Below are positions 20,488-62,335 of a stretch of DNA of 64,000 nucleotides, piece by piece. This DNA is from Armigeres subalbatus (Eukaryota > Arthropoda > Insecta > Diptera > Culicidae): contig NC_085139.1 of assembly GCF_024139115.2 (NCBI RefSeq), forward strand, positions 71,901,203 to 71,965,202. Direction: 5' to 3'. The position numbers and the translations under genes were made by a program. The notes beneath the pieces were generated by a model, which saw only the letters and a list, made by a program, of their open reading frames with translations, searched no databases and was not told where the DNA came from. How positions within the stretch are numbered: position 1 is the first letter of the stretch; the number at the start of each line of letters is the position of its first letter.

Positions 20488-20678
20488 CACCCAGGTTTTT
20501 TTTTACACGGTTTGGTTTTAGTCGTTTAAGACCTTCAGCATCAATGAAACAATGAGTTAACCCCACGAAAAAATTCACAAAAAATCAAAGAAAATTCAGG
20601 GGGTATTTAAAAAGCTGTAAAAAATCTGGTTACCCGAGAAATTAATGAATTCCAACCGTGTAAAAAAAAACCTGGGTG
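20488..20678. mobile_element. 191-bp MITE with near-perfect TIRs of about 25 bp, TA target
   Basis: It starts CACCCAGG, a T run, ACACGGTT and ends with the exact complement. TA lies on each side (20486-20487 and 20679-20680). The opposite arm of the host element lacks it and so preserves the empty-site arrangement, showing that it inserted after the arms formed. A degraded relative in reverse orientation lies at 36829-36991. TA target and short length fit a Tc1/mariner-type MITE. Confidence 0.85.
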
Positions 20679-21969
20679 TACGTATACCGCAGATCAAATG
20701 TGATCAATGCTGTTCATTTGTCCAAAGGTTAGGGTGGATCTTCGCATTTAGCCATATTCATTGTGCTTGTGGAGTGTATTTGTTGCTCAAAAATGCCAAA
20801 AAAGCAGCAAGTCTTTATCCTAACTGCAGAGGATGAGAAAAAAATTACGGACAGCAGAACAAAGGGAACCGAAGCGACAATCTTTATATAGTAACTAAAA
20901 TATCTTTTATTTCACTTCTAACCTCGTTTTGAAATGGATACATATCCAAAGACATTTTTCAATAATAGGTCATTGTTTATCTCAATATTTGTACATTTGA
21001 CCGATGTGACATGACAAACCTTGCCTCCCCCCAAACATCACATTTGAGTTGTGTTTCTTTTTGATTACTTTACGAGCCAGACGAGCTTTGATCAAATTAC
21101 AATTTAACTTACTTTGCTTATGCAAAGATATTATCCCAAATATATTATCATTTGAACATTTGATGATAGCCAGCGCAGTTTGGGTTTGTGCACGTTGCGA
21201 AGGTGTTGCTACAACAAAAGTTATGAAAAAATGTTTCTCCTAGATGCACATCGAACTTTGTTTACTGAGTGGATATATAACTGAGATCAATATCCCATGA
21301 TTTCATAAATATCTTTGCTCAGAAGATCAAATGATGGGATGGTTTGTAATGCCTGCGAATGGCATTCGTAAAATGGTGTTCGGCCAACTAAACCTAATCG
21401 GAACAAAGATTGTTTTATCAATTTCGAGAAAATTATTTCAGTTCTAAAATATTTTATATTTCTTCGGAATTCAGCCGTAAGCAACAACTAATTACACTAT
21501 ACTGTGGATGAGTCCTAGAATTCATCATGTTCATTTTGATAGTTCATGCATTTCCACTTTACAAAGATGGCTACTTTTATGATCTAAATGAGACAATATT
21601 AGTTTTACTAAAAAAAGTCATTTTCTAAAGTTTGCCTGAGTACTTTGGAAAATTTATGTCACCAATTTGTTCGTTTGGAAAATAGCTATCGATGGATGTG
21701 CTTCGATATTCGAAATATGGCCCTGAATGATCTCTAGGTCCTGTATAAAAAAGCCATGTGTTGAACTTTTATATTTTTTTTCACGGTAAAAAGTCATTTT
21801 ACCAAAAACTATAAGTTTTTTCAGTATCACTTCTTCACAAAAAATGATAATTACTTAATTTTGAAGGGACAAGTGTTTTTGGAATCCCGAAAATCTTGTT
21901 CAAATATGACATAATAATGATTTAATTTGATCAGGCGCGCCACGGATGCGCCACTGACTTGGGCCTTAA

Positions 21970-24930: not shown

Positions 24931-25261
24931 AAAAACAGTCGGAGGACCGGGTGTGAGTAAAAAAAAACAATTTATTTACTCATTACTTAAATTAAGATAC
25001 AATTAATTCACGAACTAAGTCACTGATTAACTATCTAGAATGGGAACTGAATACTAACTGACTGAATTCGATTGATTGGGCCCTACTTAATAGCTAAAAC
25101 TTGATGATACTGCAATTCGGAGGCCAATGGTCTCTGCATGGCACGATGGTCGACGTCCGGTGCAAAGGTGCTGATGTGCTTATTCCTGATGTGGGTCGGT
25201 GTGGTTGTTGCTAAGGGAATTCTGCTGATCGTTCGGTTATTCTTGGGTGTGCAACATAATT
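24931..25261 (-). repeat. 3' LTR of the errantivirus
   Basis: 331 bp, matching 32399-32729 except at four positions. On the coding strand it begins AATTATGTTGC and ends GACTGTTTTT. The env frame runs a few codons into it. The sequence before it on the coding strand (CCCCCCGGAGG) offers only a short purine stretch as polypurine tract. Confidence 0.95.
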
Positions 25262-27012
25262 CCTCCGGGGGGTAAAGAAAGGACGTCCTCGTCCTTGTTT
25301 TGATCCTTTGTAGGGTGTTCAAGATTCTTGGAGATACCAGTTTGTCCTGCTGCATTTTGTCTAAGACGTGGGCTTTTAATTTTGACTACTATTTTCTTCC
25401 TGTGGAGACAGACAAAGATCGTTATTCCGAAAATAATTACCGTTGTGGTTGACAATCCTCCTATTAGGCTGAATATCCAGGTTTGATGGGAAAACTGCTC
25501 TAGTTTGATATTCTCGATGTGCTTTCTGTTGATGATGTGAATTTTTAAGCTTGGAAATGCTCCTTGCAATTCCTTGGTGGGGCTGATTATCTCTGTAGCC
25601 ATAAAGGTTTTGTTGGCTACATTGATGCTGCAGTTGCTGAATGTGATGAGAATATTGCCCGATAGGTTCCTATCGTCTGGTCCACAGCTTGATGATAATT
25701 TGGTTTGATCTGCATTTTGGACTAAAAGTTTATTCTCCGAAATTAGAGTGATTTGCATTTCCAATGATTGTTGTGCATTACAATGGCTTGCTAGACCCAT
25801 GACTTTTGGGTAGGTGCAATTGTCTTTCAATGACTTTAAGCCTGAGTATCGCTGAACGAATTTGTCTGGATTAACAGTTGTGAAGATTTGATCCTTCGAC
25901 TTGACAATGAATCTCGGTAAGTCGATTATTATTTTTCCGTTTACTGTGAGAGGGAAAATATCGATAATTTCAGAAGATCTTTTCTCTATCTCAGGAATTT
26001 CTAGTATGTATAATAATAGATCATGTTTTGTGACTATCTTTGGTATGGCGAAATTGATCGCTTCTTGTGGAAATTCTAGTTTGACTCCTTGATCCTGCAA
26101 TAGTGAATCCATGAAAACTATCTCTTTCAGTGTAAGAAGCTTACTGCTTCACAGATAGAAAAATCCACTGAAACTTACGCCAAAAAGCATGCACATAAAT
26201 GGAACACCATTATTGGCGTAATTCCACACGGGAGTCAGCCTAAATGTATACAATTTTTGACGTGAATCGTCAATATTGCACACAAGTTGTAAGCAATCTT
26301 GTTAGGAAGAGGACCATTTCAGCGAAGAATAGCGTAAATTTTCGCATGTCAAGTTTTACACGCTGTTTATTTTTCATTATTTTTTTCTGTGTTGCTAAAG
26401 AAATTTTCGCCCTTATTACTGTATCTTGGATTTCCTCAAGTACATCGTTGATGGTGTCAATGTACAATATTAGAGTTAAAGCGTCAATTTCCTCTAATAT
26501 AAGTTTATTGGTAATTGACTGTTGTTTGATTAAATTATTGATGGTGTATGACATCTCTTGAATCCTGTTGTTAATAACGTCGTTCACCCTAATTTGATGA
26601 TTGTTTTCGTTTATAAGCTCATTCAAAGTTCTGTTAATAAGCCTCAAATCGTCCGCGTCGGGGCTGCCTGCCATCCATTTCCACGTTTGACCAATTTTGT
26701 CCCAGCGTTTGTGTCGTCTATTACTAATAGGTTTCAATTGGTAAAAGTTGTTGACTAATGCCCTACTTGAAATAATAATTTTGACATTGGTAGTTTATTA
26801 TCTGTTCGTTTGGCTATTTCGCTAAAAAGAAGTACGTTAATCTCTATATTAGTCAAATTAATTGGATGAATGATTTTTGTTACGCCTGTTTGGATTTTAC
26901 ATTCTCTAAGTTTAAATAAAAGTACAGGGTCAGAATAAAGATTTCGCATTTCTAAATGTTGTGAATTAATCAATGTTGAAATTAGGTTAAAAAATATGAG
27001 AGACAATAACAT
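25237..27012 (-). pseudogene. env: Errantivirus env, broken into three frames
   Basis: Envelope-like glycoprotein remnant, which in errantiviruses is made from a spliced RNA and sits in membranes. Three open segments lie in order. 27012-26755 begins with a hydrophobic signal-like stretch. 26737-26270 begins with a basic furin-like site (R-H-K-R near residues 8-11) and a helical region. About 26149-25237 contains cysteines, N-linked sites and a transmembrane helix near residues 212-236 of the 291-residue frame, with a short basic tail. The frame changes near 26740-26760 and again between about 26290 and 26150. The C-terminus overlaps the 3' LTR. The signal, cleavage site and membrane anchor support the call; the breaks make this copy non-functional as read. 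Confidence 0.8.
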
Positions 27013-27146
27013 GTTTAAGCTTGAGTTGATTTAATTCTTTTAATTTTATTCTTGTGTCGTTTAATGTTTCTACTGTTTTTAAAAGTTCTATCAGTGACTT
27101 CTTGTGCAATAGTTCGTCTAGCTCTAGGCTCTAGTTTTTTCTGATA

Positions 27147-30100
27147 TTAGGTTTGATGAAAACCCTTTTGTTGATCATTAAAAATAGGGGGCTCTTCTTT
27201 ATATTTAATCTGCTTGCTTTGTCTATCTGCCGCCCTGTCTAAATTTGATTTTACCTTAATGAAAAGTTCTCGTGCCGATTCGTCAATTTCTTGCCGGATG
27301 ACAACGTTCTCCTGATTGAACAAAACCTCGTTTGGAGTAAATCCCGTCGAAGAGTGGACACTGGAATTATAGAAAGAAACTGTTAAGTGGATAAGGGCAA
27401 CTGTATTTAAATTCGGGAATTTGTGTTTATTTGCGTTTAGCGTCTCAATTATCGTTGAGTGGGTTTTCTCAACCTGGCCGTTGCTTTCAGACGATGATGC
27501 GTATTTTAGGCAGGTTCCAATGCTGTCCAGATAGCTCCTTAGTTGAACGGACCTGAAAGTAGTCTCATGATCGGTGATTATTTCTCTGGGTGTACCAAAT
27601 GTAGCAAAATATTGCGCTAAAGCGTTTTTAACATCTATAAGATTTTTAGTATCCATTGGTAACAGTTGTGTGTGTTTAGAAAATGAATCCACAAGTGATA
27701 AAAAGTTGAGTCTGTCTATCGAAAATATGTCCATATGGACTCTGTCCATAGGTTTATCGGTTGTGGGTCTGGGAGAAATTTTGATATTGTAATGTTTCCT
27801 GTCATATTTATGGGTATTGCAAATAGTGCAAGTGTTCACTAAACTTTTTATTTTCGCATGCATTCCGGGGAAAAAGTAACTACGTTTGGGTTGATTCTCA
27901 TTTTCATTGATTCCTCTATGTGCGTGCACGTTCATGTTCTTTTGATATTAATGCGTTTTGTCTATGTTCGTTACCTACGTCTTCGACTCTGAATTGTGTT
28001 AATACAAAATGACCTGATTTATTAAAATGTTTCTTGTATACCTCTTGTATAAGGACCATTATGCTGTCGGGAGCCATAATAGCAGATTGTCTATTATTGT
28101 GGAATCTTTTTAGAACATCTAAAATGGACTGTTCGTCAAACTGTTTCATGCAAATTGTTACTCTATGGTAGTGGGGAAAGGGTGATTCTTTAATTTCTGT
28201 TTCGATACGAGAAATTTTAAAAATTATTTGATTTCTAAAGTAATTTATCGGTCGTTCCGTACAGTGAATGTAATCGTCATCAGAAGGGTTTGCTGAGTGT
28301 ATTGTGTCTGCGTCTGTCGTTTCGTTTTCATCATTCGTTTCCGAAGGTGGACTGGTTTGGTGGGAAAAATTATCAATACTCTCAGAAGTTTCAGAATTAT
28401 TTATTATTGGACTAGTCTCAGTTTCAGTTTTTCGGCTCAGGGCATCTGCAACGACATTTGCTTTGCCCTCCTTATATTGTACATCATAATCAAAACTTTC
28501 TAACTCGAGTCTCCATCTTAAAATTTTCTGATTTTTAACTGAAGTTTTGATGAAGGTTAATGGCTTATGATCCGTAATCAATGTGAATTTGTTTCCGTAT
28601 AAATAAGAACGATATTTTTCGACGGCCCAAATGATTGCCAGAGCTTCTTTCTCCGTTGTGGAGTAATTTTCCCCGCTCCATTTAGTGTCCTGCTTCCAAA
28701 TGCTATTGGTATTTCTTTGTTATCTTGAATTTGTGAAAGAACCGCTCCTAATGCATAATTACTAGCATCAGTAGTAAGTATGAATGGTAAATCATAATCA
28801 GGGTATGATAATATCTGATCAGAAGTCAAAATGAGTTTTAATTTTTCAAATCCTTTTTTATATTCTTTATCGTTTGTATCCACAAAGATGTCCTTTTTCA
28901 AATATTTGGTAAGCGGTTTAGCAAGTTTCGCGTAATCTTTTATAAACCGTCTATAATAGCCTGTTAAACCAAGAAATTGCTTAATTTCTTTCTGCGAAGC
29001 GGGTGATTTCCAGTCGAGTATTTTAATAATTTTCGAGGGATCTGGTTTTACTCCTTCTGGGGTAATAACATGTCCTAGAAATTCAGTCTCTTTCTTCAAG
29101 AACTCACATTTGTCTAATTGAATCTTGAGATTGAAATCTGATAGTCTTTTCAAAACTTTTGCGATATTTTCCAAATGGTTCTTCAGATTGAATCCGATGA
29201 TTATTATGTCATCCAAATAAACATAACAAATCGTTCCAATATAGTCGGCTAAAATGTAATTCACTGCACGCTGAAATGTAGCAAGTGCATTTTTGAGGCC
29301 AAAAGGCATCCGAACAAATTCGAAATGACCCTGCGCCGTAGAAAAGGCTGTCTTTGCTTGATGATTCGGATCCATTTGAATCTGGTGGAAACCAGATTTC
29401 AGGTCAAGGGTGGTAAAATATTTCCCTAGACTATCTAAAATATCTTCGATCTGAGGAATGGGAAATTTATCATTTACCGTTTTTTCATTTAATTTACGGT
29501 AATCAATCACAACTCTGACTTTTCGTTTTCCCGAAGCGTCAGTTTTCTTGGGTACAACCCAAATTGGTGAAGAGTAGGGACTGGTAGAATGGCGGATAAT
29601 TCCATTTTCCAACATGTCTCTAACTTGTTCTTCAACATCTGCCTTAAAATGATGAGGGTAGCGATAAGATTTAGTGTATACCGGTTCATCATCCTTAGTA
29701 ATAATTTTGTGTTTGATAGCCATAGTGGCTGTCAATTTCTCATCTTTTTTCAATAAAACTTGCTGGTGTTGTAGTATTACTGATAAAAGTTCATGTTTCT
29801 CTAATTTCGAAAGATGCTGAGTACGGATAAGCTCATTGATTGCATCTAACTCGAGATTGTTCTCCGAACTAATTGGAATAGGAGTAATGGTTTCGAAATT
29901 GTTTACTCTTAATCCAATTTTTGGTAGATTTTCCTTGAATTCTTTACATGTAGTCATAACATGAATAGTAGATTTACTATTGCATGAATTATATAGGCCT
30001 GGTTAAATTATAATTTGTTTGCTTAACTTTTGAGGTGTTGGGACAAACCAGTCTCCATCAGTTGTTGTATCGATGGTGATGGTGTGGTGAAAAAGTTTAG

Positions 30101-30600
30101 CCGTGGGATAAAATTTCTGAAAACCAATTTTAATCCCGTTTATTGTGACGGTACAATTGTTAAAATCGATGGTTGATTTAGTTTTGGCTAGGAATTCGGA
30201 ACCAATAATTCCGTCAAAAAAATTATGAAATTTCATTTCGTAGTATGTTTGTTTTGGAAGATTATGTCCTAACAAATTAATTTTCCCTTTTCGATTAATT
30301 GAGTATGTGCCTGAAATAGTAGTTTTAAGTGTGTTTTGTGTCTTTGGAATTATGCCTGGTCTCAAAACATTTTTGTTCGCTCCGGTGTCTAAGAGTAATT
30401 TCAATTCTTCATCAGTTTTTGAATTTTTGCAGCTTATATAAGGTAAAAAATTCATGTTATCGGGGTTCTCGAAGCTGTTTGCCAAAAATTTATGGAGAGC
30501 TCCGTTTCATCTTCTGAAGCACTAACGTTATCTTCATCTATTGGGGGTTCCTCTAATTCATTATTATTTATCTGTCTCCTATTGAGGGTAGTTTACTATT
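27147..30600 (-). pseudogene. pol: Errantivirus pol (PR-RT-RNaseH-IN) with one stop and two frameshifts
   Basis: Pol overlaps the end of gag in the -1 frame, as usual for errantiviruses; I could not identify a clear slippery heptamer. Protease: D-T-G-A at residues 33-36 of the frame ending at 30003. An in-frame TAA at 30003-30005 separates it from RT (29957-28578), which has T-L-D-L (residue 185) and Y-L-D-D (247-250). RNase H begins with T-D-A-S (D397), then the frame shifts at about 28665-28680 and continues in 28581-27916. A second shift near 27920 leads into integrase (27935-27147). Integrase has zinc ligands H-x-H and C-x2-C, and catalytic D69, D122 and E156. Spacing D122 to E156 leaves 33 residues, slightly under the usual 35. 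All domains are recognisable and fresh-looking. Confidence 0.9.
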
Positions 30601-31563
30601 TGTAGATTGTGTATCCATAGGATGAACTTTTTGGAAAGTATGTTTATGCGTATTGTTATCAGTACTCTGGCTAGAGGGAAGTGGTGGATTTACTGGCTTG
30701 AACGAATTTGGTTTTTCATGTTTCAACTGTAGATTATTATTCTTATAAAATTTCGGATTATGCTTATCGGTCATGTTTTGAGCGGTGATTTCCTGGGATC
30801 TAAATTTACATAAGAAGGCGTAAGCGTCTTCCAAGTCACTTGGACGTGCTGCCTGGGCATATCCAAAATACGGTTCCTTTAATCCAGCTATAAAAGCTGC
30901 TAATGCGTCAGCGTCTATAAAGTCGCATATTGCATCCCAATTATCTCGATACTTTTGATTTTGTTTAGCAATAATTTTAATATTTTGGACTATTTCTTTT
31001 GTCTTTTGGTAGTATCGTTGGATACTAACCCCTTCAATCATTTTATTCTGCCAAAGTTGGCATTTGTATGTGGACAATTCTTGTCTGTCACCAAGGGTGG
31101 CAACGAGAATGTCTTTAATTTCTGAAAAAAACTGAGGATTGCCTGCAAGACATACTATGTCTTTTGCTCGGCCCTCAATTTTGTTTATTATAGCCATGGT
31201 GTACATTTCAAATTGTTGGTCTGATACTAGCGGTTTAAATGCGTTAACAGTTTTTTCTGTAGTTTGTATCCAATTAGAGAGTTGTTTTCTATTGCCAACG
31301 AAAGACTGAATCGCTTTGATGGGATCGGGAATTCTAAATAAGTCGTTAAACGTTTGACGGGAATCAGGTTGCATTGCACTATTCTCCGTCGGACTAATGT
31401 TTCCTGAAGTACCGTTCTGCTGAGTTAGCGCATTCAGGGTTTGTTGTTGTTCGTTCTGAGTTTGTTGAATGATATGCAGTGTTTGAGCTAGGGTGCTAAG
31501 CTCGGTAGCGATATCTTTAACTAAGTTTTCCATATTAGATTCGTCTATCGACAAAGAGCACAA
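30568..31563 (-). CDS. gag: Errantivirus Gag, 331 residues, intact
   Basis: Structural capsid-like protein of the retrotransposon, which would assemble the particle that packages its RNA. The frame is open from the ATG at 31563 to the stop at 30568 and is the only intact gene of the element. The N-terminal third is glutamine/asparagine rich with a helical start. The central part has the D-P-I-K-A-I-Q-S-F-V-G-N and W-Q-N-K-M-I-E-G-V-S blocks typical of errantivirus capsid regions. No CCHC zinc knuckle is present, as in several members of this group. A downstream ATG in the same frame (near 31533) could also serve. Pol follows by -1 overlap. Confidence 0.85.
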   Translation of the reverse strand: MCSLSIDESNMENLVKDIATELSTLAQTLHIIQQTQNEQQQTLNALTQQNGTSGNISPTENSAMQPDSRQTFNDLFRIPDPIKAIQSFVGNRKQLSNWIQTTEKTVNAFKPLVSDQQFEMYTMAIINKIEGRAKDIVCLAGNPQFFSEIKDILVATLGDRQELSTYKCQLWQNKMIEGVSIQRYYQKTKEIVQNIKIIAKQNQKYRDNWDAICDFIDADALAAFIAGLKEPYFGYAQAARPSDLEDAYAFLCKFRSQEITAQNMTDKHNPKFYKNNNLQLKHEKPNSFKPVNPPLPSSQSTDNNTHKHTFQKVHPMDTQSTNSKLPSIGDR

Positions 31564-31631
31564 TAATGGAATATCGGTTTTTAAGGGTACGTGTGAGTAT
31601 TCCTCTGAATGATCCGATTGGGTATCCTCTG

Positions 31632-31877
31632 ATTCCGAATCGTTGGAATTAGAATGAATGAAAAGTTGCCTAGCTCTGTGTAGGGCAGACTTATTCTTAT
31701 TAACTAATTAATTATTCTTATTATTCTTAATTATTCTTAATTATTTTCCGATTAATTATTCCGAATCGTTGGAATTAGAATGAATGAAAAGTTGCCTAGC
31801 TCTGTGTAGGGCAGACTTATTCTTATTAACTAATTAATTATTCTTATTATTCTTAATTATTCTTAATTATTCTTGGT
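31632..31877. repeat. 126-bp tandem duplication in the leader of the errantivirus
   Basis: The segment starting ATTCCGAATCGTTGG at 31632 is repeated from 31758. Both copies end in AT-rich TTCTTAATTA runs. It lies just upstream of the gag start on the coding strand. Confidence 0.9.
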
Positions 31878-31982
31878 TGCAGCAACTCCAATGTGACTGG
31901 ATTTGGTCGCATATGAGTTGCAGTGACTTATATATGACAAGTGTGCTACTCGGGTTAGGCATTCAATATGGGATCGTGGGCT

Positions 31983-32301
31983 CTATCTTGTAGTTTTCCA
32001 CACGAAAAGGTAGAATATACACCTATCTTGTAGTATGCACTATTCAAATTTAGCACTAAATTCTTCAAGAAACACCTATCTTGTAGTATGACTCTGTTCA
32101 AATAAAGCACTGTCTGGGAGGTCTATCTTGTAGTGCCTCTCCAGAATGGAAGTATCACTTTTACACTTTTAATAAAAAGGAAAAGATTCACTTACCTGAT
32201 GGTTCGGTCGTTGAGTGTTGGTAAAGTTGGCGGCGGTGACCTCGAGTCGTCTTCGCTTTAACAATCACAAAGAGATGGATGCGGCTGCTCTATCTTGTAG
32301 T
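31983..32301 (-). promoter_or_regulatory. Five copies of a 12-bp motif in the errantivirus leader
   Basis: CTATCTTGTAGT occurs identically at 31983-31994, 32023-32034, 32076-32087, 32123-32134 and 32290-32301 (ACTACAAGATAG on the coding strand). In gypsy the same part of the element carries an array of Su(Hw) sites that acts as an insulator. The motif here differs, so only the position is comparable. A protein-binding array is inference. Confidence 0.6.
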
Positions 32302-32384
32302 GGCTGCTTCTCCGGATCACACTTGGTGGGAAATTGTTAGTATAACCACCAGCACTGTTATTACAACTTCACTTTACTTAACGC

Positions 32385-32399
32385 CGTACGGCTGCGCCA
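32385..32399 (-). promoter_or_regulatory. Primer binding site, tRNA-Ser type
   Basis: Directly after the 5' LTR the coding strand reads TGGCGCAGCCG, sharing the T with the LTR end. TGGCGCAG complements the 3' end of tRNA-Ser, the primer used by 17.6, 297 and ZAM type elements. Confidence 0.7.
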
Positions 32400-32729
32400 A
32401 AAACAGTCGGAGGACCGGGTGTGAGTAAAAAAAAACAATTTATTTACTCATTACTTAAATTAAGATACAATTAATTCACGAACTAAGTCACTGATTAACT
32501 ATCTAGAATGGGAACTGAATACTAACTTACTGAACTCGATTGATTGGGCCCTACTTAATAGCTAAAACTTGATGATACTGCAATTCGGGGGCCAATGGTC
32601 TCTGCATGGCACGATGGTCGACGTCCGGTGCAAAGGTGCTGATGTGCTTATTCCTGATGTGGGTCGGTGTGGTTGTTGTTAAGGGAATTCTGCTGATCGT
32701 TCGGTTATTCTTGGGTGTGCAACATAATT
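32399..32729 (-). repeat. 5' LTR of the errantivirus
   Basis: 331 bp, the partner of 24931-25261 with four differences (about 1.2 percent), indicating a recent insertion. ATAT follows at 32730-32733. Confidence 0.95.
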
Positions 32730-36640: not shown

Positions 36641-36828
36641 TCCAATGGATTTCAGCACTCTGCTCGCCACGAAAATTGTTTGGAATTCGTAACACTAGTG
36701 TAGAACATACTGGCTCAGGATCAGCACCGTAGCGTGTGGTTGGCCAGGTTGGCCCCCGCCAAGGGCGCTAGGTCTTAGGAGGGCGCCGAAATCCAGAATT
36801 GAACTATAGGAAATGATGACATAAATCT

Positions 36829-36991
36829 CATCAAGGTTTTTTACGCGGTTGGATGGATACCACTAGAGGCCTCTAGAACCACTTGAATTTTCTCCGATTT
36901 TTTTGTGATTTTTTGTGGTGAGGTTAATTCCTTGTTTTATTGATGCTGAGGGTCTCAATCGGCTAAAATCAAACCGTGTTAAAAGCCTTGG
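36829..36991. mobile_element. Degraded MITE, relative of 20488-20678 in reverse orientation
   Basis: ATCAAGGTTTTTTACGCGG at the left and AAACCGTGTTAAAAGCCTTG at the right, with TTTGTTTTATTGATGCTGA-like interior matching the complement of the 20.5-kb copy. TA follows on the right. It is more diverged than the other copy. Confidence 0.65.
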
Positions 36992-37916
36992 TATATTCTC
37001 AAATTTATCGGTTCAAAGTGTTTTAGATTCAAGCTTTTAATAGGCGTTTCCCTTGGGGACTTCATCTTCAATCTACCGTTTGACTAATTTTACTGATACA
37101 GGTAACAGAACGTAGGCTCAAGAAGCATCTTCACTGTCTATTTTTTAACATTTACCTGATGAAGAAGCAAGTGAAAATAGAAAGGAACAGGAAATATAAA
37201 TGAAAAGAAGATTGGAACAAGTTTCTTCAAGGAAGCCCTTGAAGACTTAAACATGCCAAAGGCAAAACACAGAGTAGACTGTAAAAAACGCGTATAATTT
37301 TTGTTCGTGAATAATAAATCAAAGCCGTTTCCAAATAACAGATGTAGTGATAGGGAGTTTGTTTTAATTTAGGAAAACATCGGACCATAACGGTCGCATT
37401 TGATCCTGTGAAATTTTCGATTCCTTTAAACCAGACAATTGTATAAGGGTGAAAAAACATACAAAGGCGTAATATATCGTTTTCTTCTGAAATATAAACC
37501 ATATTTTAGGAAATAAAAGGCATTGTATGAGCAATGTTTAGCTGGTGTATTAAAAAAAGTTTTAATTTTCGAGACATCATGCATGAAAGTCTTAAATTCC
37601 GCTATCTCTTACATAGGACATCTTCAAATATGTGTTTTATATAAGAAAACTTTAATATTATATACATTATCGAAAAAGCTGCTGTAGTTTTATCCTCGAC
37701 TTAAGTTTAGCATCATTTTACACATCGGATTTGATAGCTATTGCAGGCACTAATCTATAAGATTTGGACACAGTTGAGAGATGGATTTTATTGGCCTAGT
37801 CAGATCCACTAGTGCGTGAATTCACAAGGAAGTCTGGATTTTGTGTCAGTAACACACGCACTACTGGATCTAGTTTTTTTTATTTGGGATTTTTAGAAAT
37901 GTTCTGGCCTTTTTTT
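36992..37916. other. Left part of the hAT-like element without a partner in the right arm
   Basis: AT-rich. A minus-strand ORF of 91 codons at 37227-37502 has no domain and shows no hAT transposase motif. Confidence 0.5.
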
Positions 37917-38490
37917 TAAATCCTTCATTCATAAAGCAAACATTTCTCGCTTAACTTTTCAAAAGGACCTAAGTAACATTCATGAATTAATTTGAGTACT
38001 GCAATCAAAAGCTTTCATGTTGTTCTGTTGATTGCGCTATTCAAATTAACCTTTACGGTACCAGCAGACGAAAACGACTAAAAAATATTTTTCAATTTGT
38101 TCTCATTTCGTCAATGATCACCCGATTTTAACGAAACTGGCATGATTGGATCGAAAATTTAATATATTTTCAGGAAATGGCTTGAGGACGTGAATTTTCG
38201 TAATGGTTCCGGATTGAGGCCAAAACCCCGTGGGGTACCTATGGTAACCCAAAATGTAATTTTTCCAAGAAACTCACGAAATTATCAATCACGATTTTAT
38301 TCATAACAAATCTATGTATGGTGAATCTAAATGCAATCATATGTTATATTTGCGTGACCTGGAACCCTGAATCGTTCCAGTTTATGACCCTCATTTTTGT
38401 CCTCATTTTAAAAATCAAGCTCATGGGTGCTAGAGCTGTGCGCATATTGAAATGTTATCGGCAGCGACGTGATAGACCATTTTCAGTCAG
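37917..38490. other. Left inverted arm of the hAT-like element
   Basis: The reverse complement matches 44385-44525 and 45375-45740. Landmarks are CTCGCTTAACTTTTCAAAAG, CCCCGTGGGGTACC, GTGCGCATATTGAAATG and GACGTGATAGACCATTTTC. Confidence 0.85.
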
Positions 38491-38507
38491 CGACGGCGGC
38501 GTGGCGA

Positions 38508-41500
38508 AGTTCCTCAAGGAATTTCTCCGGAAGTTCCTCAAGGAATTCCTCCGGAAGTTCCTCAAGGAATTCCTCCGGAAGTTCCTCCAGGACTTCCTCC
38601 GGAAGTTCCTCCAGGAATTCCTCCGGCAGTTCCTCCAGGAATTCCTCCGGAAGTTCCTCCAGGAATTCCTCCGGAAGTTCCTCCAGGAATTCCTCCGGAA
38701 GTTCCTCCAGGAATTCCTCCGGAAGTTCCTCCAGGAATTCCTCCGGAAGTTCCTCCAGGAATTCCTCCGGAAGTTCCTCAGGAATTCCTCGGAAGTTCCT
38801 CCAGGAATTCCTCCGGAAGTTCCTCCAGGAATTCCTCCGGAAGTTCCTCCAGGAATTCCTCCGGAAGTTCCTCCAGGAATTCCTCCGGAAGTTCCTCCAG
38901 GAATTCCTCGGAAGTTCCTCCAGGAATTCCTCCGGAAGTTCCTCCAGGAATTCCTCCGGAAGTTCCTCCAGGAATTCCTCCGGAAGTTCCTCCAGGAATT
39001 CCTCCGGAAGTTCCTCCAGGAATTCCTCCGGAAGTTCCTCCAGGAATTCCTCCGGAAGTTCCTCCAGGAATTCCTCCGGAAGTTCCTCCAGGAATTCCTC
39101 CGGAAGTTCCTCCAGGAATTCCTCCGGAAGTTCCTCAAGGAATTCCTCCGGAAGTTCCTCAGGAATTCCTCCGGAAGTTTCTCCAGGAATTCCTCCGGAA
39201 GTTCCTCCAGGAATTCCTCCGGAAGTTCCTCCAGGAATTCCTCCGGAAGTTCCTCCAGAAATTCCTCCGGAAGTTCCTCCAGGAATTCCTCCGGAAGTTC
39301 CTCCAGGAATTCCTCCGGATGTTCCTCCTGGAATTCCTCCGGATGTACCTCCAGGAATTCCTCCGGATGTTCCTACAGGAATTCCTCCGGAAGTTCCTCC
39401 AGGAATTCCTCCGGAAGTTCCTCCAGGAATTCCTCCGGACGATCCTTTAGGAATTTCTCCAGGTTCCTCCGGAAGACCCTCCAGGAACTCCTTCGGAAGT
39501 TCTTCCAGGAATTCCTCCGGAAGCTCCTCCAGGAATTTCTGCGGAAGTTCCTCCTGGAATTCCTCCGGAAGTTCCTCCAGGAATTCCTCCGGAAGTTCCT
39601 CCAGGAATTCCTCCGGAAGTTCCTCAGGAATTCCTCCGGAAGTTCCTCCAGGAATTCCTCCGGAAGTTCCTCAGGAATTCCTCCGGAAGTTCCTCCAGGA
39701 ATTCCTCCGGAAGTTCCTCCAGGAATTCCTCCGGAAGTTCCTCCAGGAATTCCTCCGGAAGTTCCTCAGGAATTCCTCGGAAGTTCCTCCAGGAATTCCT
39801 CGAGTTCCTCAGGAATTCCTCGGAAGTTCCTCCAGGAATTCCTCCGGAAGTTCCTCCAGGAATTCCTCGGAAGTTCCTCCAGGAATTCCTCCGGAAGTTC
39901 CTCCAGGAATTCCTCCGGAAGTTCCTCCAGGAATTCCTCCGGAAGTTCCACCAGGAATTCCTCCGGAAGTTCCTCCAGGAATTCCTCCAGATGTTACTCC
40001 AGGAATTCCCCCGGAAGTTCCTCCAGGAATTCCCCCGGAAGTTCCTCCAGGAATTCCTCCGGAAGTTCCTCCAGGAATTCCTCCGGAAGTTCCTCCAGGA
40101 ATTCCTCCGGAAGTTCCTCCAGGAATTCCTCCGGAAGTTCCTCCAGGAATTCCTCCGGCAGTTCCTCCAAGAATTCCTCCGGAAGTTCCTCCAGGAATTT
40201 CTCCAAGAATTCCTCCGGAAGTTCCTCCAGGAGGAGGAACTTCTGGAGGAGTTCCTGGAGGAACTTCTGGAGGAGTTCCTGGAGGAACTTCTGGAGGAGT
40301 TCCTGGAGGAACTTCTGGAGGAGTTCCTGGAGGAACTTCTGGAGGAGTTCCTGGAGGAACTTCTGGAGGAGTTCCTGGAGGAACTTCTGGAGGAGATCCT
40401 GGAGGAACTTCCGGAGGAGTTCTTGGAGGAATTTCTGAAGGAGTTCCTGGAGGAACTTCTGGAGGAGTTCCTGGAGGAACTTCTGGAGGAGTTTCTGAAG
40501 GAGTTCCTGGAGGAACTTCTGGAGGAGTTCCTGGAGGAACTTCTGGAGGAGTTCCTGGAGGAACTTCTGGAGGAGTTCCTGGAGGAACTTCTGGAGGAAC
40601 TTCTGGAGGAGTTCCTGGAGGAACTTCCGGAGGAGGTCTTGAAGGAACTTCTGGAGGAGTTCCTGGAGGAACTTCTGGAGAAGTTCCTGGAGGAATTCCT
40701 GGAGGAACTTCCGGAGGAATTCCCGGAGGAACATCCGGAGGAATTCCTGGAGGAACTTCCGGAGGAATTCCTGGAGGAACTTCCGGAGGAATTCCTGGAG
40801 GAACTTCGGGAGCAATTCCTGGAGGAACTTCTGGAGGAATTCCTGGAGGAACTTCCGGAGGAATTCCTGGAGGAACTTCCGGAGGAATTCCTGGAGGAAC
40901 TTCCGGAGGAATTCCTGGAGGAACTTCCGGAGGAATTCCTGGAGGAACTTCCGGAGGAATTCCTGGAGGAACTTCCGGAGGAATTCCTGGAGGAACTTCC
41001 GGAGGAATTCCTGGAGGAACTTCGGAGGAATTCCTGGAGGAACTTCCGGAGGAATTCCTGGAGGAACTTCCGGAGGAATTCCTGGAGGAACTTCCGGAGG
41101 AATTCCTGGAGGAACTTCCGAGGAATTCCTGGAGGAACTTCCGGAGGAATTCCTGGAGGAACTTCCGGAGGAATTCCTGGAGGAACTTCCGAGGAATTCC
41201 TGGAGGAACTTCCGGAGGAATTCCTGGAGGAACTTCCGGAGGAATTCCTGGAGGAACTTCCGGAGGAATTCCTGGAGGAACTTCCGGAGGAATTCCTGGA
41301 GGAACTTCCGGAGGAATTCCTGGAGGAACTTCCGGAGGAATTCCTGGAGGAACTTCCGAGGAATTCCTGGAGGAACTTCCGGAGGAATTCCTGGAGGAAC
41401 TTCCGGAGGAATTCCTGGAGGAACTTCGGAGGAATTCCTGGAGGAACTTCCGGAGGAATTCCTGGAGGAACTTCCGGAGGAATTCCTGGAGGAACTTCCG

Positions 41501-44375
41501 GAGGAATTCCTGGAGGAACTTCGGAGGAATTCCTGGAGGAACTTCCGGAGGAATTCCTGGAGGAACTTCGGAGGAATTCCTGGAGGAACTTCCGGAGGAA
41601 TTCCTGGAGGAACTTCCGGAGGAATTCCTGGAGGAACTTCCGGAGGAATTCCTGGAGGAACTTCCGGAGGAATTCCTGGAGGAACTTCCGGAGGAATTCC
41701 TGGAGGAACTTCCGAGGAATTCCTGGAGGAACTTCCGGAGGAATTCCTGGAGGAACTTCCGGAGGAATTCCTGGAGGAACTTCCGGAGGAATTCCTGGAG
41801 GAACTTCCGGAGGAATTCCTGGAGGAACTTCCGGAGGAATTCCTGGAGGAACTTCCGGAGGAATTCCTGGAGGAACTTCCGGAGGAATTCCTGGAGGAAC
41901 TTCCGGAGGAATTCCTGGAGGAACTTCGGAGGAATTCCTGGAGGAACTTCCGGAGGAATTCCTGGAGGAACTTCGGAGGAATTCCTGGAGGAACTTCCGG
42001 AGGAATTCCTGGAGGAACTTCGGAGGAATTCCTGGAGGAACTTCCGGAGGAATTCCTGGAGGAACTTCCGGAGGAATTCCTGGAGGAACTTCCGGAGGAA
42101 TTCCTGGAGGAACTTCCGGAGGAATTCCTGGAGGAACTTCGGAGGAATTCCTGGAGGAACTTCCGGAGGAATTCCTGGAGGAACTTCCGGAGGAATTCCT
42201 GGAGGAACTTCCGGAGGAATTCCTGGAGGAACTTCCGGAGGAATTCCTGGAGGAACTTCCGGAGGAATTCCTGGAGGAACTTCCGGAGGAATTCCTGGAG
42301 GAACTTCCGGAGGAATTCCTGGAGGAACTTCCGGAGGAATTCCTGGAGGAACTTCCGGAGGAATTCCTGGAGGAACTTCCGGAGGAATTCCTGGAGGAAC
42401 TTCCGGAGGAATTCCTGGAGGAACTTCGGAGGAATTCCTGGAGGAACTTCCGGAGGAATTCCTGGAGGAACTTCCGGAGGAATTCCTGGAGGAACTTCCG
42501 GAGGAATTCCTGGAGGAACTTCCGGAGGAATTCCTGGAGGAACTTCCGGAGGAATTCCTGGAGGAACTTCCGGAGGAATTCCTGGAGGAACTTCCGGAGG
42601 AATTCCTGGAGGAACTTCCGGAGGAATTCCTGGAGGAACTTCCGGAGGAATTCCTGGAGGAACTTCGGAGGAATTCCTGGAGGAACTTCCGGAGGAATTC
42701 CTGGAGGAACTTCCGGAGGAATTCCTGGAGGAACTTCCGAGGAATTCCTGGAGGAACTTCCGGAGGAATTCCTGGAGGAACTTCCGGAGGAATTCCTGGA
42801 GGAACTTCCGGAGGAATTCCTGGAGGAACTTCGGAGGAATTCCTGGAGGAACTTCCGGAGGAATTCCTGGAGGAACTTCCGGAGGAATTCCTGGAGGAAC
42901 TTCGGAGGAATTCCTGGAGGAACTTCCGGAGGAATTCCTGGAGGAACTTCCGGAGGAATTCCTGGAGGAACTTCCGGAGGAATTCCTGAAGGAACTTCCG
43001 GAGGAATTCCTGAAGGAACTTCCGGAGGAATTCCTGAAGGAACTTCCGGAGGAATTCCTGAAGGAACTTCCGGAGGAATTCCTGAAGGAACTTCCGGAGG
43101 AATTCCTAAAGGAACTTCCGGATGGATTCCTAAAGGAACTTCGGAGGAATTTCTAAAGGAACTTCCGGAGGAATTCCTGACGGAACTTCCGGAGGAATTC
43201 CTGGAGGAACTTCCGGAGGAATTCCTGGAGGAACTTCCGGAGGAATTCCTGGAGGAACTTCCGGAGGAATTCCTGGAGGAACTTCCTGGAGGAACTTCCG
43301 GAGGAATTCCTGGAGGAACTTCCGGAGGAATTCTTGGAGGAACTTCCGGAGGAATTCCTGGAGGAACTTCCGGAGGAATTCCTGGAGGAACTTCCGGAGG
43401 AATTCCTGGAGGAACTTCCGGAGGAATTCCTGGAGGAACTTCCGGAGGAATTCCTGGAGGAACTTGCGGAGGAATTCCTGGAGGAACTTCCGGAGGAATT
43501 GCTGGAGGAGCTATAGGAGGAATTCCGGGAGGACCTTCCGGAGGAATTCCTGGAGGAACTTCCGGAGGAATTCCTGGAGGAACTTCCGGAGGAATTCCTG
43601 GAGGAACTTCCGGAGGAATTCCTGGAGGAACTTCCGGAGGAATTCCTGGAGGAACTTCCGAGGAATTCCTGGAGGAACTTCGGAGGAATTCCTGGAGGAA
43701 CTTCCGGAGGAATTCCTGGAGGAACTTCCGGAGGAATTCCTGGAGGAACTTCCGGAGGAATTCCTGGAGGAACTTCCGGAGGAATTCCTGGAGGAACTTC
43801 CGGAGGAATTCCTGGAGGAACTTCCGGAGGAATTCCTGGAGGAACTTCGGAGGAATTCCTGGAGGAACTTCCGGAGGAATTCCTGGAGGAACTTCGGAGG
43901 AATTCCTGGAGGAACTTCCGCAGGAATTCCTGGAGGAACTTCCGGAGGAATTCCTGGAGGAACTTCCGGAGGAATTCCTGGAGGAACTTCCGGAGGAATT
44001 CCTTGAGGAACTTCCGGAGGAATTCCTGGAGGAACTTCCGGAGGAATTCCTGGAGGAACTTCTGGAGGAATTCCTGGAGGAACTTCCGGATGAATTCCTG
44101 GAGGAACTTCCGGAGGAATTCCTGGAGGAACTTCCGGAGGAATTCCTGGAGGAACTTCCGGAGGAATTCCTGGAGGAACTTCCGGAGGAATTCCTGGAGG
44201 AACTTCCGGAGGAATTCCTGGAGGAACTTCCGGAGGAATTCCTGGAGGAACTTCCGGAGGAATTCCTGGAGGAACTTCCGGAGTAATTCCTGGAGGAACT
44301 TCCGGAGGAATTCCTGGAGGAACTTCCGGAGGAATTCCTGGAGGAACTTCCGGAGGAACTTCGCCACGCCGTTGT
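38508..44375. repeat. 24-bp minisatellite array 2, head-to-head palindrome of 5.9 kb
   Basis: From 38508 to 40230 the units read GGAAGTTCCTCC then AGGAATTCCTCC, as in array 1. From 40231 to 44375 they read as the complement. The junction is GTTCCTCC, AGGA, GGAGGAAC at about 40221-40240. Beside it, 40231-40690 is a sub-block with GGAGTTCC in place of GGAATTCC. Many units have lost one base, so frames hop along the array. Since no frame holds a stop, ORFs of 1,431, 1,506 and 1,591 codons appear on both strands; they are not genes. Each unit again has CCGGAAGT. Confidence 0.95.
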
Positions 44376-44384
44376 CGCTGACTG

Positions 44385-45740
44385 AAAATGGTCTATCACG
44401 TCGTCGCCGATAACATTTCAATATGCGCACAGCTCTAGCACACATAAGCTCGATTTTTAAAATGTCCTCATTGGGTCATCAACTGGAACGATTCAAGGTT
44501 CCAGGTCATGAAAAACAAACGCACTGAATAAGTTCCAGTCCCTTATTCATGAGAAATCACGAATTTTAAGCTGACGAACGGCACCAATATGTTCAATTCC
44601 GTAAATTTCCTCTTAGGTTTCTACCGGAACCGGCTCCAAGTTGGCCAACTGATTGTGACCAAACTCACTTTGAAGTACTCATTTGGTTCCCACCGGAATC
44701 GGCTCCAGGTTGGCCATCTCAGGGTGACCAAACTCACTTGGAAATATTCGGCATGAGTTCCAATCGCGTATTCGAGTAAAATCCCGAATTTTAAGCCGTC
44801 GAACGACACCAATATGATCAAATCCGTAAATGTCCTCTATGGGTTCCCACCGGAACCTACTCCAGGTTGGCCACCTGAAGGTGACCAAAATAATTTGGAA
44901 GTACTCAGCATGAGTTCCATTTGCCTTTGTGTGGAAAATCCCAAATTTCAAGCCGTAGAACTGCACCAATATGCTCAATTCGGAATGTCCTCTTTGGGCT
45001 CCCACCGGAACCGGCTCCAGGTTGGCCACCTAAAGGTTACCAAACTCCCCTGGAAGTACTCGGCATGAGTTCTAGTCGCTTGTTTGAGGAAAATCCCGAA
45101 TTTTAAGCCGTCGAACGGCACCAATATGATCAAATCCGTAAATGTCCTCATTGGGTTCCCACCGGAACCGGCTCCAGGTTGGCCACCTGAAGGTGGTCAA
45201 ACACATTTTAAAGTATAATGCATGAGCTCCTTTTGCTTTTGTGAGTGAATTCAAGTCATTTGGGTATTCAAACGGTTCCAATATATCCATTTCGGAAGTG
45301 TCCACTTTAGGTCCCTACCGGAACCGATATCAAGCAGCCATGTACCCGGAACCAATTGCTAGGTCCTTGAAATCTCAAATATAACATATGATTGCATTTA
45401 GATTCACCATACATAGATTTGTTATGAATAAAATCATTTTTTCGTGAGTTTCTTGGAAAAATTACATTTTGGGTTACTATAGGTACCCCACGGGGTTTTG
45501 GCCTCAATCCGGAACCATTACGAAAATTCACGTCCTCAAGCCATTTCCTGGAAATATATTAATTTTTCGATCCAACCATGCCTGTTTCGTTAAAATCGGG
45601 TGATCATTGACGAAATGAGAGCAAAATGAAAAATAATTTTTAGTCGTTTTCGTCTGCTGGTATCGTAAAGGTTAATTCATGAAAAAAATGTTACTTGGGT
45701 CCTTTTGAAAAGTTAAGCGAGATTTATTAAATCCACCACC
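44385..45740. other. Right inverted arm of the hAT-like element
   Basis: Pairs with the left arm at its inner (44385-44525) and outer (45375-45740) thirds; the middle holds the 156-bp tandem repeat absent from the left arm. Confidence 0.85.
44621..45360. repeat. 156-bp tandem repeat (about four and a half copies)
   Basis: CACCGGAACCGGCTCCAGG-type starts occur at 44621, 44691, 44848, 45003, 45160 and 45315, giving periods of 157, 155, 157 and 155 bp after a shortened first copy. Copies share GTTGGCCACCTGAAGGTGAC and CCCGAATTTTAAGCCGTCG. The small ORFs over it are by-products. Confidence 0.9.
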
Positions 45741-45901
45741 CGCAAAAATGTTGATTTTGAAAAAAAAAACCAGCTCTTATCATGTCATTTGCACATGCAT
45801 GAAAGTAAGGGGCGCCCAATAACGATTTCGCTAAGGGCGCTGGGAGTCCACGCTACGGCTCTGCTCAGGATACAAAACGTCGTCAATCAATCTCTGAAAA
45901 C

Positions 45902-53680: not shown

Positions 53681-54073
53681 CAGTGTTGGGAAAAACTCAA
53701 AATCTCAAAACTCAAGAACGATTCAAATCACGCGTGAGTTGAAACGCACCCAACTCAGCACATAAAAATCATGGATGAGTTGAATCATCCATTTGAATCA
53801 TCGTAGGTTTTCTTTAGTTCTACTTCGTAAAATAACAGTAAATTAACGTTCAACACATAGCACAATGGATAATCTTGCGTGTGTAAACAATAAATTTCCC
53901 CCAAATTGATTATAAACACTTTTAAGAACGAAATGATTTTTTGGGAAATGAGTGAAATGATCCGTTTTAGCATGAAAAACTCAGGCGTGATGCATTATTT
54001 TAAAATCTCAAACGAGTTAGTTCGCGCAGGAGTGCTCAATGATTGAGTTTTATGAATGATTTTACCAACACTG
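53681..54073. mobile_element. 393-bp hAT MITE with 8-bp target duplication
   Basis: It begins CAGTGTTGGGAAAA and ends TTTTACCAACACTG. ATGACATT flanks it exactly (53673-53680 and 54074-54081), the 8-bp duplication of hAT transposons. Subterminal ACTCAA and TTGAGT words recur in both orientations. The interior is AT-rich with no transposase. It inserted into a GGCCGAA-type unit. Confidence 0.88.
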
Positions 54074-59879: not shown

Positions 59880-60175
59880 AGAGTGACTAATTTTGGTGCT
59901 AAAACTAGCATGATCCTTTCAACAAGTTAGGCTAAGGCAATTCAAAAGTCCTGCAAGCGGTCAAAGACGTCAATGGCCCTTTTTATAAGCATATTTCGCT
60001 TGCTGATCCAAAGCCATGGAAAAAGAGCAGTAGATCGTTTTTTTTTTTTTTTTTTTTTTTTAATTCTTTATTAAAGTGTTTTTTTAATTTTAAAATTAAG
60101 TTCAACACTATCAAGTAGATTGACTGGTTTTGGTGCTTAAACTAAAATATCCCCTTCCCCAGTTCCCTGGGGGAA
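59880..60175. repeat. Inverted copy of the 59.2-59.7 kb repeat unit
   Basis: The complement of the tandem unit is recognisable: GGTGCTAAAACTA, GTCAATGGCCCTTTTTAT, CTGATCCAAAGCCATGG, then TGACTGGTTTTGGTGC leading into the start of array 3 at CTGGGGGAACC. A short retroposon at 60036-60113 splits it. Confidence 0.75.
60036..60113 (-). mobile_element. Tiny 5'-truncated retroposon with poly(A) and target duplication
   Basis: The T run at 60038-60061 is a poly(A) tail on the minus strand, preceded there by ACACTTTAATAAAGAATT. AGTAGAT flanks both sides (60029-60035 and 60114-60120). The 78-bp body matches the sequence at 32965-33015. This is a terminal scrap of a non-LTR element. Confidence 0.75.
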
Positions 60176-60177
60176 CC

Positions 60178-62335
60178 TCCTCCGGAAGTTCCTCCAGAAA
60201 CTCCTCCGGAAGTTCCTCCAGGAACTACTCCGGAAGTTCCCCCAGAAACTACTCCGGAAGTTCCTCCAGGGACTCCTCCGGAAGTTCCTCCAGGAACTCC
60301 TCCGGAAGTTCCTCCAGGAACTCCTCCGGAAGTTCCTCCAGGAACTCCTCCGGAAGTTCCTCCAGGAACTCCTCCGGAAGTTCCTCCAGGAACTCCTCCG
60401 GAAGTTCCTCCAGGAACTCCTCCGGAAGTTCCTCCAGGAACTCCTCCGGAAGTTCCTCCAGGAACTCCTCCGGAAGTTCCTCCAGGAACTCCTCCGGAAG
60501 TTCCTCCAGGAACTCCTCCGGAAGTTCCTCCAGGAACTCCTCCGGAAGTTCCTCCAGGAACTCCTTCGGAAGTTCCTCCAGGAACTCCTCCGGAAGTTCC
60601 TCCAGGAACTCCTCCGGAAGTTCCTCCAGGAACTCCTCCGGAAGTTCCTCCAGGAACTCCTCCGAAGTTCCTCCAGGAACTCCTCCGGAAGTTCCTCCAG
60701 GAACTCCTCCGGAAGTTCCTCCAGGAACTCCTCCGGAAGTTCCTCCAGGAACTCCTCCGGAAGTTCCTCCAGGAACTCCTCCGGAAGTTCCTCCAGGAAC
60801 TCCTCCGGAAGTTCCTCCAGGAACTCCTCCGGAAGTTCCTCCAGGAACTCCGCCGACAGTTCCACCAGGAACCCCTCCGGAAGTGCCTCCAGGAACTCCT
60901 CCGGAAGTTCCTCCAGGAACTCCTCCGGAAGTTCCTCCAGGAACTCCTCCGGAAGTTCCTCCAGGAACTCCTCCGGAAGTTCCTCCAGGAACTCCTCCGG
61001 AAGTTCCTCCAGGAACTCCTCCGGAAGTTCCTCCAGGAACTCCTCCGGAAGTTCCTCCAGGAACTCCTCCGGAAGTTCCTCCACGAACTCCTCCGGAAGT
61101 TCCTCCAGGAACTCCTCCGGAAGTTCCTCCAGGAACTCCTCCGGAAGTTCCTCCAGGAACTCCTCCGGAAGTTCCTCCAGGAACTCCTCCGGAAGTTCCT
61201 CCAGGAACTCCTCCGGAAGTTCCTCCAGGAACTCCTCCGGAAGTTCCTCCAGGAACTCCTCCGAAGTTCCTCCAGGAACTCCTCCGGAAGTTCCTCCAGG
61301 AACTCCTCCGGAAGTTCCTCCAGGAACTCCTCCGGAAGTTCCTCCAGGAACTCCTCCGGAAGTTCCTCCAGGAACTCCTCCGGAAGTTCCTCCAGGAACT
61401 CCTCCGGAAGTTCCTCCAGGAACTCCTCCGGAAGTTCCTCCAGGAACTCCTCCGGAAGTTCCTCCAGGAACTCCTCCGGAAGTTCCTCAAGGAACTCCTC
61501 CGGGAGTTCCTCAAGGAACTCCTCCGGGAGTTCCTCAAGGAACTCCTCCGGGAGTTCCTCCAGGAACTCCTCCGGAAGTTCCTCCAGGAACTCTTCCGGA
61601 AGTTCCTCCAGGAACTCCTCCGGAAGTTCCTCCAGGAACTCCTCCGGAAGTTCCTCCAGGAACTCCTCCGGAAGTTCCTCCAGGAACTCCTCCGGAAGTT
61701 CCTCCAGGAACTCCTCCGGAAGTTCCTCCAGGAACTCCTCCGGAAGTTCCTCCAGGAACTCCTCCGGAAGTTCCTCCAGGAACTCCTCCGGAAGTTCCTC
61801 CAGGAACTCCTCCAGAAGTTCCTCCAGGAACTCCTCCAGAAGTTCCTCCAGGAACTCCTCCGGAATTTCTTCCAGGAACTCCTCCGGAAGTTCCTCCAGG
61901 AACTCCTCCGGAAGTTCCTCCAGGAACTCCTCCGGAAGTTCCTCCAGGAACTCCTCCGGAAGTTCCTCCAGGAACTCCTCCGGAAGTTCCTCCAGGAACT
62001 CCTCCGAAAGTTCCTCCAGGAACTCCTCCGGAAGTTCCTCCAGGAACTCCTCCGGAAGTTCCTCCAGGAACTTCTCCTAAAGTTCCTCCGGAAGTTTCTT
62101 CTGAAGTTCCTTCAGAAATTCCTCCGGCAGTTCCCCCAGGAATTCCTCTGGAAGTTCCTACAAGAAGAGCCACTAGGATTTCATCCGGAGGCTTCTCCAG
62201 GAATTCCTCCGGAAAATCTTACAGAAATTCCTCCAGAAGCTCCTCCAAGAATTCCTCCGGAAGTTCCTCCAGGAATTCCTCCGGAAGTTCCTCCAGGAAT
62301 ACCTCCGGAGATTCCTCGAGGATGCCAAAACTCTG
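60178..62335. repeat. 24-bp minisatellite array 3 (about 90 units)
   Basis: The unit is GGAAGTTCCTCC followed by AGGAACTCCTCC, the same family as arrays 1 and 2 but with GGAACTCC in place of GGAATTCC in nearly all units, removing the EcoRI palindrome. CCGGAAGT is kept. The left end reads out of an inverted repeat unit; the right end degrades into irregular units at 62080-62335 that carry GGAATTCC again. Open frames of 739 codons (plus) and 429 codons (minus) are by-products. Confidence 0.95.

Follow-up and report, generated by a model that had tools for sequence, protein, structure and literature searches.

We analysed a 64,000-nucleotide stretch of the Armigeres subalbatus genome (C1:71901203-71965202, hereafter the window, where C1 is contig NC_085139.1), in which a long inverted array of a 24-bp satellite lies within transposon sequence. 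The genome searched comprises 1.3357 Gb and includes three very large contigs, C1-C3 (318.6, 465.0 and 430.1 Mb). The original prediction, made from the letters of the window, described the structure at 36722-45863 as one 9.1-kb non-autonomous hAT-like element built as a foldback around the satellite palindrome. Our results make it very probable that three independent insertions are nested here: a hAT-like element (layer 1), a palindromic miniature inverted-repeat transposable element (MITE; layer 2) inserted into it at ATTT, and a satellite-bearing foldback (layer 3) inserted into the MITE at TTAA. The same high probability covers the foldback as a dispersed, non-autonomous family that carries a 24-bp satellite palindrome. 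That the insertions are nested, that empty sites exist, that paired termini are dispersed and that the satellite palindrome recurs can all be read from the assembled sequence. The features of the nest, with the evidence for each, are as follows.

36714..36721, + strand: left 8-bp target duplication of layer 1, CTCAGGAT (sequence)
36722..37941, + strand: left part of layer 1, terminus CAGCACCGTAGCGTG (the best 40 of 1399 genome candidates start at base 1; relatives with both ends)
37942..37945, + strand: left target duplication of layer 2, ATTT (one ATTT in each of 11 uninterrupted relatives; a twelfth has ATTG)
37946..38045, + strand: left part of the layer-2 MITE, terminus CTCGCTTAACTTTTCAAAAGGACC (standalone copies in L027 and L028)
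38046..38049, + strand: left target duplication of layer 3, TTAA (sequence)
38050..38352, + strand: left terminal arm of layer 3, 303 bp, beginning CCTTTACGGTACCAGC (arm and terminus searches)
38353..38505, + strand: left inner arm of layer 3, adjoining the satellite, without the 157-bp block of other copies (arm comparison)
38506..40232, + strand: 24-bp satellite of layer 3, CCTCC strand, 1727 bp (sequence)
40233..44362, - strand: 24-bp satellite of layer 3, GGAGG strand, 4130 bp (sequence)
44363..44514, - strand: right inner arm of layer 3 (same satellite/arm junction in L036, L069 and L075)
44528..45326, - strand: tandem block of the right arm of layer 3, unit of about 157 bp (sequence)
45376..45671, - strand: right terminal arm of layer 3 (arm search)
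45672..45675, + strand: right target duplication of layer 3, TTAA (sequence)
45676..45721, + strand: right part of the layer-2 MITE (standalone copies)
45722..45725, + strand: right target duplication of layer 2, ATTT (sequence)
45726..45863, + strand: right part of layer 1, ending CCACGCTACGGCTCTG (terminus match; relatives)
45864..45871, + strand: right 8-bp target duplication of layer 1, CTCAGGAT (sequence)

The outer hAT-like element is interrupted by the satellite carrier

The outer boundaries are as first described. An exact 8-bp duplication, CTCAGGAT, occupies 36714-36721 and 45864-45871, and the CAG-type termini inside it, CAGCACCGTAGCGTG and CAGAGCCGTAGCGTG, match at 13 of 15 positions. 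A terminus scan of the window, which called for an exact 8-bp duplication, CAG/CTG and a terminal match of at least 11/15 within 15 kb, returned two candidates, layer 1 and an element at 53681-54073, both at 13/15. Two hundred dinucleotide shuffles of the non-satellite DNA gave no candidate at 12/15 or above and, at 11/15, 0.015 per shuffle; chance does not account for the outer duplication and termini. Members of the hAT family have a short terminal inverted repeat (TIR) that begins with CAG, and layer 1 displays such a TIR together with its 8-bp duplication. A hAT-like non-autonomous element is thus present as predicted, and the window copy measures 1362 bp once its inserts are subtracted.

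When the left 179 bp served as a genome query, the best 40 of 1399 candidates all began at element base 1. We examined 10-kb stretches at 20 of the 39 other places, chosen as the best-scoring ones minus one on a small contig. The search for paired termini that had been proposed as a check was borne out: in 18 of these 20 relatives a right end that reads CAGAGCCGTAGCGTGG or nearly so lies 1.4 to 5.9 kb away. The 8-bp duplication is exact in 13 and carries one mismatch in 2; three relatives show at least two mismatches or a shift, and two have no right end in reach. The site at which the window holds its inserts is crossed uninterrupted in 12 of the 20, with a single ATTT in 11 and ATTG in one, and is not clearly visible in the remaining eight. 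Because these 12 relatives read straight through the inner site, the hAT-like element does not include the satellite, which within the nest is carried by layer 3 alone.

The inverted arms point the same way. They exist, as had been reported, in three pairs with 86-97% identity (38044-38352 vs 45677-45376, 94.5%; 38349-38505 vs 44514-44363, 86%; 37945-37980 vs 45722-45687, 97%), and the change in satellite orientation between them is real, with the CCTCC strand running to about 40232 and the GGAGG strand beyond. The arms nevertheless stop short of the CAG termini, ending at the inner target duplications ATTT and TTAA. Outside them, the left 1.22 kb and the right 0.14 kb share no significant similarity beyond the 15-bp terminus. 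A single 9.1-kb hAT-like foldback carrying the satellite would account for the outer TIR and the exact duplication, which do enclose the whole structure, but it is scarcely credible given the arm ends, the 12 empty inner sites and the fact that the layer-3 arm finds a match in none of the 20 relatives (10-kb stretches, E 1e-5). The satellite-palindrome foldback exists and is dispersed, but as an element distinct from the hAT-like one, and the limits of the satellite carrier move from 36722-45863 to 38050-45671.

Under the nested reading, a hAT-like non-autonomous element would have inserted first, duplicating CTCAGGAT; a small palindromic MITE would have followed into the hAT-like element, duplicating ATTT; and the 7.6-kb foldback would have entered the MITE at TTAA.

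An open reading frame (ORF) scan of six layer-1 relatives, judged by eye, found long ORFs that resemble those of nested Tc1/mariner and long interspersed nuclear elements (LINEs). The hAT-like copies in L017 and L013 contain further nested elements, with a 358-aa ORF resembling a Tc1/mariner transposase and LINE-like ORFs, again by eye. We had considered 36835-36990 as a nested MITE and dropped it; this region lies inside a continuous match in many relatives and is for that reason treated as layer 1. The layer-1 stretch 36878-36984 recurs with 83% identity at 20500-20604, in an unrelated-looking element near the second satellite array of the window.

A palindromic MITE forms the middle layer

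The MITE ends in the window are CTCGCTTAAC at 37946 and GTTAAGCGAG at 45721, and the MITE portion present amounts to 150 bp. We saw two standalone copies, of 155 and 154 bp, in L027 (ATTT flanks) and L028 (AAAT flanks), and both are unbroken across the TTAA at which the window holds layer 3. A stretch of about 60 bp in the left arm (about 37987-38049), once taken for a separate tiny insert, is actually the centre of this MITE. By description only, layer 2 can be set beside the ATon elements of Aedes aegypti, for which insertion at AT is given in the available part of PMC3422177.

The foldback belongs to a dispersed family with paired TTAA ends

The layer-3 element at 38050-45671 is 7622 bp long and starts and ends with CCTTTACG[G/A]TACCAGCAGAC. 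Its family plan consists of a 303-bp terminal arm, a tandem block with a unit of about 157 bp, an inner arm, and the 24-bp satellite running inward and then reversed. The window copy is a lopsided version of this plan, in that its left arm has no 157-bp block and its satellite halves measure 1727 vs 4130 bp.

An arm query that excludes TTAA, for which the best 40 of 301 candidates were scored, gave at least 42 genome matches, and 36 of 42 begin at the first base after TTAA. These matches form 10 convergent pairs including the window: eight copies that we call A-H (5.4 to 10.6 kb), and a 369-bp copy at C3:362885551-362885919 (L117). Nine of the ten are flanked by TTAA on either side; in D it is absent on the right. 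Eight further ends have no listed partner nearby; seven of the eight abut TTAA, and one of the eight is the right end of C3:95529757. A genome-wide search for the exact 24-bp terminus joined to TTAA gave 54 occurrences (29 forward, 25 reverse), and 0 for the reversed-pattern control. Neighbouring exact termini within 15 kb are arranged '+-' in ten cases and '--' in one, with 0 '-+' and 0 '++'.

Both searches combined yield 14 paired copies: the 369-bp one and 13 that measure 3.9 to 10.6 kb. Of the 14, 12 have TTAA on either side, but two of the pairs, C3:88762378 and C3:95529757, were found through the pattern that itself contains TTAA. CCTT marks the two ends of the window element, both ends in 11 of the 12 other pairs checked for it, and C3:95529757; D has no CC at its right end.

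Nine unpaired termini were fetched at greater length, and three of these (L108, L109 and L113) contain satellite-like DNA. The arm is followed by the 157-bp block in L108-L111, L114 and L115; the arm match of L112 extends to base 415, and L116 is cut at 212 bp. In L113, 94 bp of arm are followed by satellite-like DNA and then by an inverted arm. Among the ORFs printed for these nine pieces, none was recognisable by eye as a transposase, with no domain search made. An IMG/VR scan with a piece of the layer-3 arm gave no match.

The satellite palindrome recurs across copies

Satellite orientation could be judged in 12 of the 14 paired copies, and 11 of them flip: the window, A-H, C3:88762378 and C3:95529757. 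All run with the CCTCC strand first and the GGAGG strand second. D and F each looked unflipped in two samples, but closer samples revealed the flip; C3:227419688 was left out of the count, since only one of its two samples lay outside arm sequence. Copy A, which we read whole, is nearly symmetric: an arm, the 157-bp block and 1.30 kb of satellite lead to the flip, beyond which come 1.25 kb of satellite, the inner arm, the 157-bp block and the arm. In this copy we found an exact inner-arm mark on just one side, the right, and a solitary reversed motif in the left half.

Palindromes and extended tandem arrays pose difficulties for assembly, and our analysis rests on an assembly without reads, so the inverted satellite might be an assembly artefact of a long tandem array. 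This explanation is very improbable: one anatomy with one polarity recurs at eleven loci whose flanks differ, ten of them with TTAA at both ends, and the unflipped satellite of copy L076 indicates that the assembly does not force a flip.

The inner structure also bears on whether the palindrome travels with the element. The satellite/inner-arm junction is identical in the window, A, B and a partial element beside E (L075), and the window and C have the same satellite variant to the right of the flip. The dominant variant (CAAGG or CCAGG) is the same in both halves in 8 of 9 elements, judged from 250-bp samples for seven of them. Were the foldback old, with a palindrome that grew or flipped locus by locus after insertion, one would expect features that are indeed seen: satellite-bearing pairs range widely in length (3.9 to 10.6 kb), dominant variants differ among copies, one copy has no satellite and one has no flip. 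The common junction, the uniform polarity in 11 of 11 flipped copies and the variant that the window has in common with C argue against such local growth, which we regard as improbable.

Several observations weigh against a uniform, mobile palindrome family. TTAA is absent at the right end in 2 of the 14 pairs (D and C3:227419688), and 29 of the 54 exact termini have no partner in either the arm or the exact-terminus search. When 20 unpaired termini were sampled 1.7 kb inside, clean satellite appeared in 3 and not in 17. L076, read whole, has a single-orientation satellite that runs straight into the 157-bp block, and the 369-bp copy L117 contains no satellite motif. In a 700-bp arm comparison, an arm's own partner is the closest in A, B and C, within the set of E, and for the right arm of F, but not in D, G or H, nor for the left arm of F or the right arm of the window. 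Finally, no transposase was identified for any of the three layers, from ORFs inspected by eye only and with no domain search. Given L076 and L117, the palindrome is not obligatory, and copying between arms is not general, given the arms whose own partner is not the closest. From the mixed contents of the unpaired ends it follows that the family also includes members that are older and shortened, and that some termini do not lead to satellite.

Class and mobilisation of the foldback

The available sections of PMC2872659 give TTAA target duplication and a CC[C/T]T terminal motif as hallmarks of piggyBac elements, with TIRs that are usually 12-19 bp long. Layer 3, with ends of the type TTAACCTTTACG..., duplicates TTAA and carries the CC[C/T]T motif, but its inverted identity spans the 303-bp terminal arm and beyond. 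Since these arms are too long for the usual short TIR, we do not file layer 3 as piggyBac; it is a TTAA foldback with piggyBac-like ends, not a proven piggyBac. Its long inverted arms with internal tandem repeats, seen in the whole of copy A, are those of the foldback class, and its TTAA duplication departs from the 8-10-bp target duplication of Mutator-type foldbacks.

We propose that the whole layer-3 unit was moved in trans, via its CCTTTACGATACCAGC ends, by a TTAA-specific, piggyBac-type transposase. The satellite may have grown inside the element by unequal exchange or slippage, and in some copies inverted duplication or gene conversion may have transferred the sequence of one half to the other. 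A TTAA-targeting enzyme from outside the piggyBac superfamily is a rather unlikely, if still serious, alternative. It would be in keeping with terminal arms that far exceed the length usual for piggyBac in the part of PMC2872659 at hand, and with the absence of a recognised transposase in our ORF inspection, which included no domain search; the piggyBac-type source is favoured by the joint presence of the TTAA duplication and the CC[C/T]T motif, both drawn from the same account.

Relation to known elements

Foldbacks of Drosophila such as Galileo and FB resemble layer 3 in their long inverted arms with internal tandem repeats. FB is a Mutator element, and the target duplications of Galileo and FB differ from that of layer 3. 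Galileo is placed in the P superfamily in the available part of PMC4079207. The same source, as far as available, describes the closest known system, Tetris of Drosophila virilis, a non-autonomous foldback that lacks a conserved ORF, has a flanking domain, bears a tandem-repeat block in either arm and contains an internal repeat from which satellite arrays expand (PMC4079207). Tetris differs in its 8-10-bp duplications, in the Mutator superfamily suggested by its authors and in a repeat of about 220 bp (PMC4079207), whereas layer 3 has a TTAA target, CCTT ends, and a 157-bp block plus a kilobase-scale 24-bp satellite palindrome. That palindrome fills most of the layer-3 element of the window.

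TCAST of Tribolium castaneum offers a second likeness, an inverted satellite within the TIRs of a dispersed, non-autonomous DNA element with a target duplication (PMC3411249, available sections). These elements, however, are at most 1181 bp long and combine an almost complete monomer with an inverted monomer segment between 3-bp ACT duplications, and the portion of that paper available to us describes no kilobase satellite palindrome (PMC3411249). CMITEs and piggyBac/TTAA elements have the TTAA duplication and CC[C/T]T motif of layer 3, but CMITEs measure about 100 bp, and in the accessible text tandem CMITE arrays are reported, though no foldback arms or satellite palindrome (PMC2872659). Foldbacks with tandem repeats that feed satellites (Tetris, PMC4079207) and inverted elements that bear satellite (TCAST, PMC3411249) are thus known, on the available text of these sources. 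In open-licence papers, a search that did not cover mosquito transposon databases, we found no description of a TTAA foldback with a satellite palindrome of kilobase size as its body, and the letters of the satellite had no match in papers.

The foldback would be a vehicle for a dispersed minisatellite, since a single insertion brings an inverted tandem repeat, several kilobases long, to another TTAA site. Long palindromes are expected to be fragile and to cause rearrangements. In this element the satellite can form most of the length, which helps to explain how one tandem repeat could spread through an insect genome. It has been proposed that in Aedes aegypti chromosome 1 owes its rapid evolution more to minisatellites than to transposable elements (PMC4021624, available part). 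An element that is both minisatellite and transposon blurs that contrast, in a way that can be tested locus by locus.

Other satellite carriers and neighbouring repeats

The 24-bp satellite also occurs outside the foldback. In L009 (C1:256735032 region), an unrelated 2.28-kb insertion at about 460-2760 interrupts a hAT-like copy at about base 163. It has a 19-bp TIR, TGTCGAATTCGTTTTTAAA, ends reading TGTCGAATTCG and a probable 3-bp TTA duplication, and inside it 384 bp and 579 bp of the satellite run in opposite orientations. With 74% matches, this satellite is probably older. An end of the L009 type also abuts layer-3 copy F (L049).

Within the window, 11087-18737 is a 7.65-kb array of the same 24-bp satellite without a flip, lying between inverted arms at 10018-10259 and 20313-20746. 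The sequence TTAAGGCCCAAGTCAGT at 9407 and its mirror at 21969 are possible ends of a 12.5-kb element around this array. It is conceivable, and we put it forward tentatively, that transposons of several unrelated types carry one and the same 24-bp satellite as a passenger, more than once in the form of an inverted, palindromic array. Its carriers would be the TTAA foldback, the L009 element and perhaps the unflipped 12.5-kb structure at 9407-21969, an extension held with the same reserve. If so, the satellite spread mainly through transposons that took it up, and dispersed arrays would be transposon remnants.

A third array, at 60172-62166, consists of a variant of the 24-bp satellite in a single orientation, and a comparison of 4 kb of its left flank with 1.8 kb of its right flank found no inverted arms around it. 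A separate 23-bp minisatellite with CCTCTTG/CAAGAGG-type units occupies 4121-6285 of the window and 6027-10000 of L018. At 24931-32729 lies a long terminal repeat (LTR) retrotransposon whose 331-bp LTRs are 98.8% alike and which has several long minus-strand ORFs, gypsy-like by eye. The second candidate of the terminus scan, at 53681-54073, is a 393-bp hAT-like MITE with termini CAGTGTTGG and an exact 8-bp duplication, ATGACATT.

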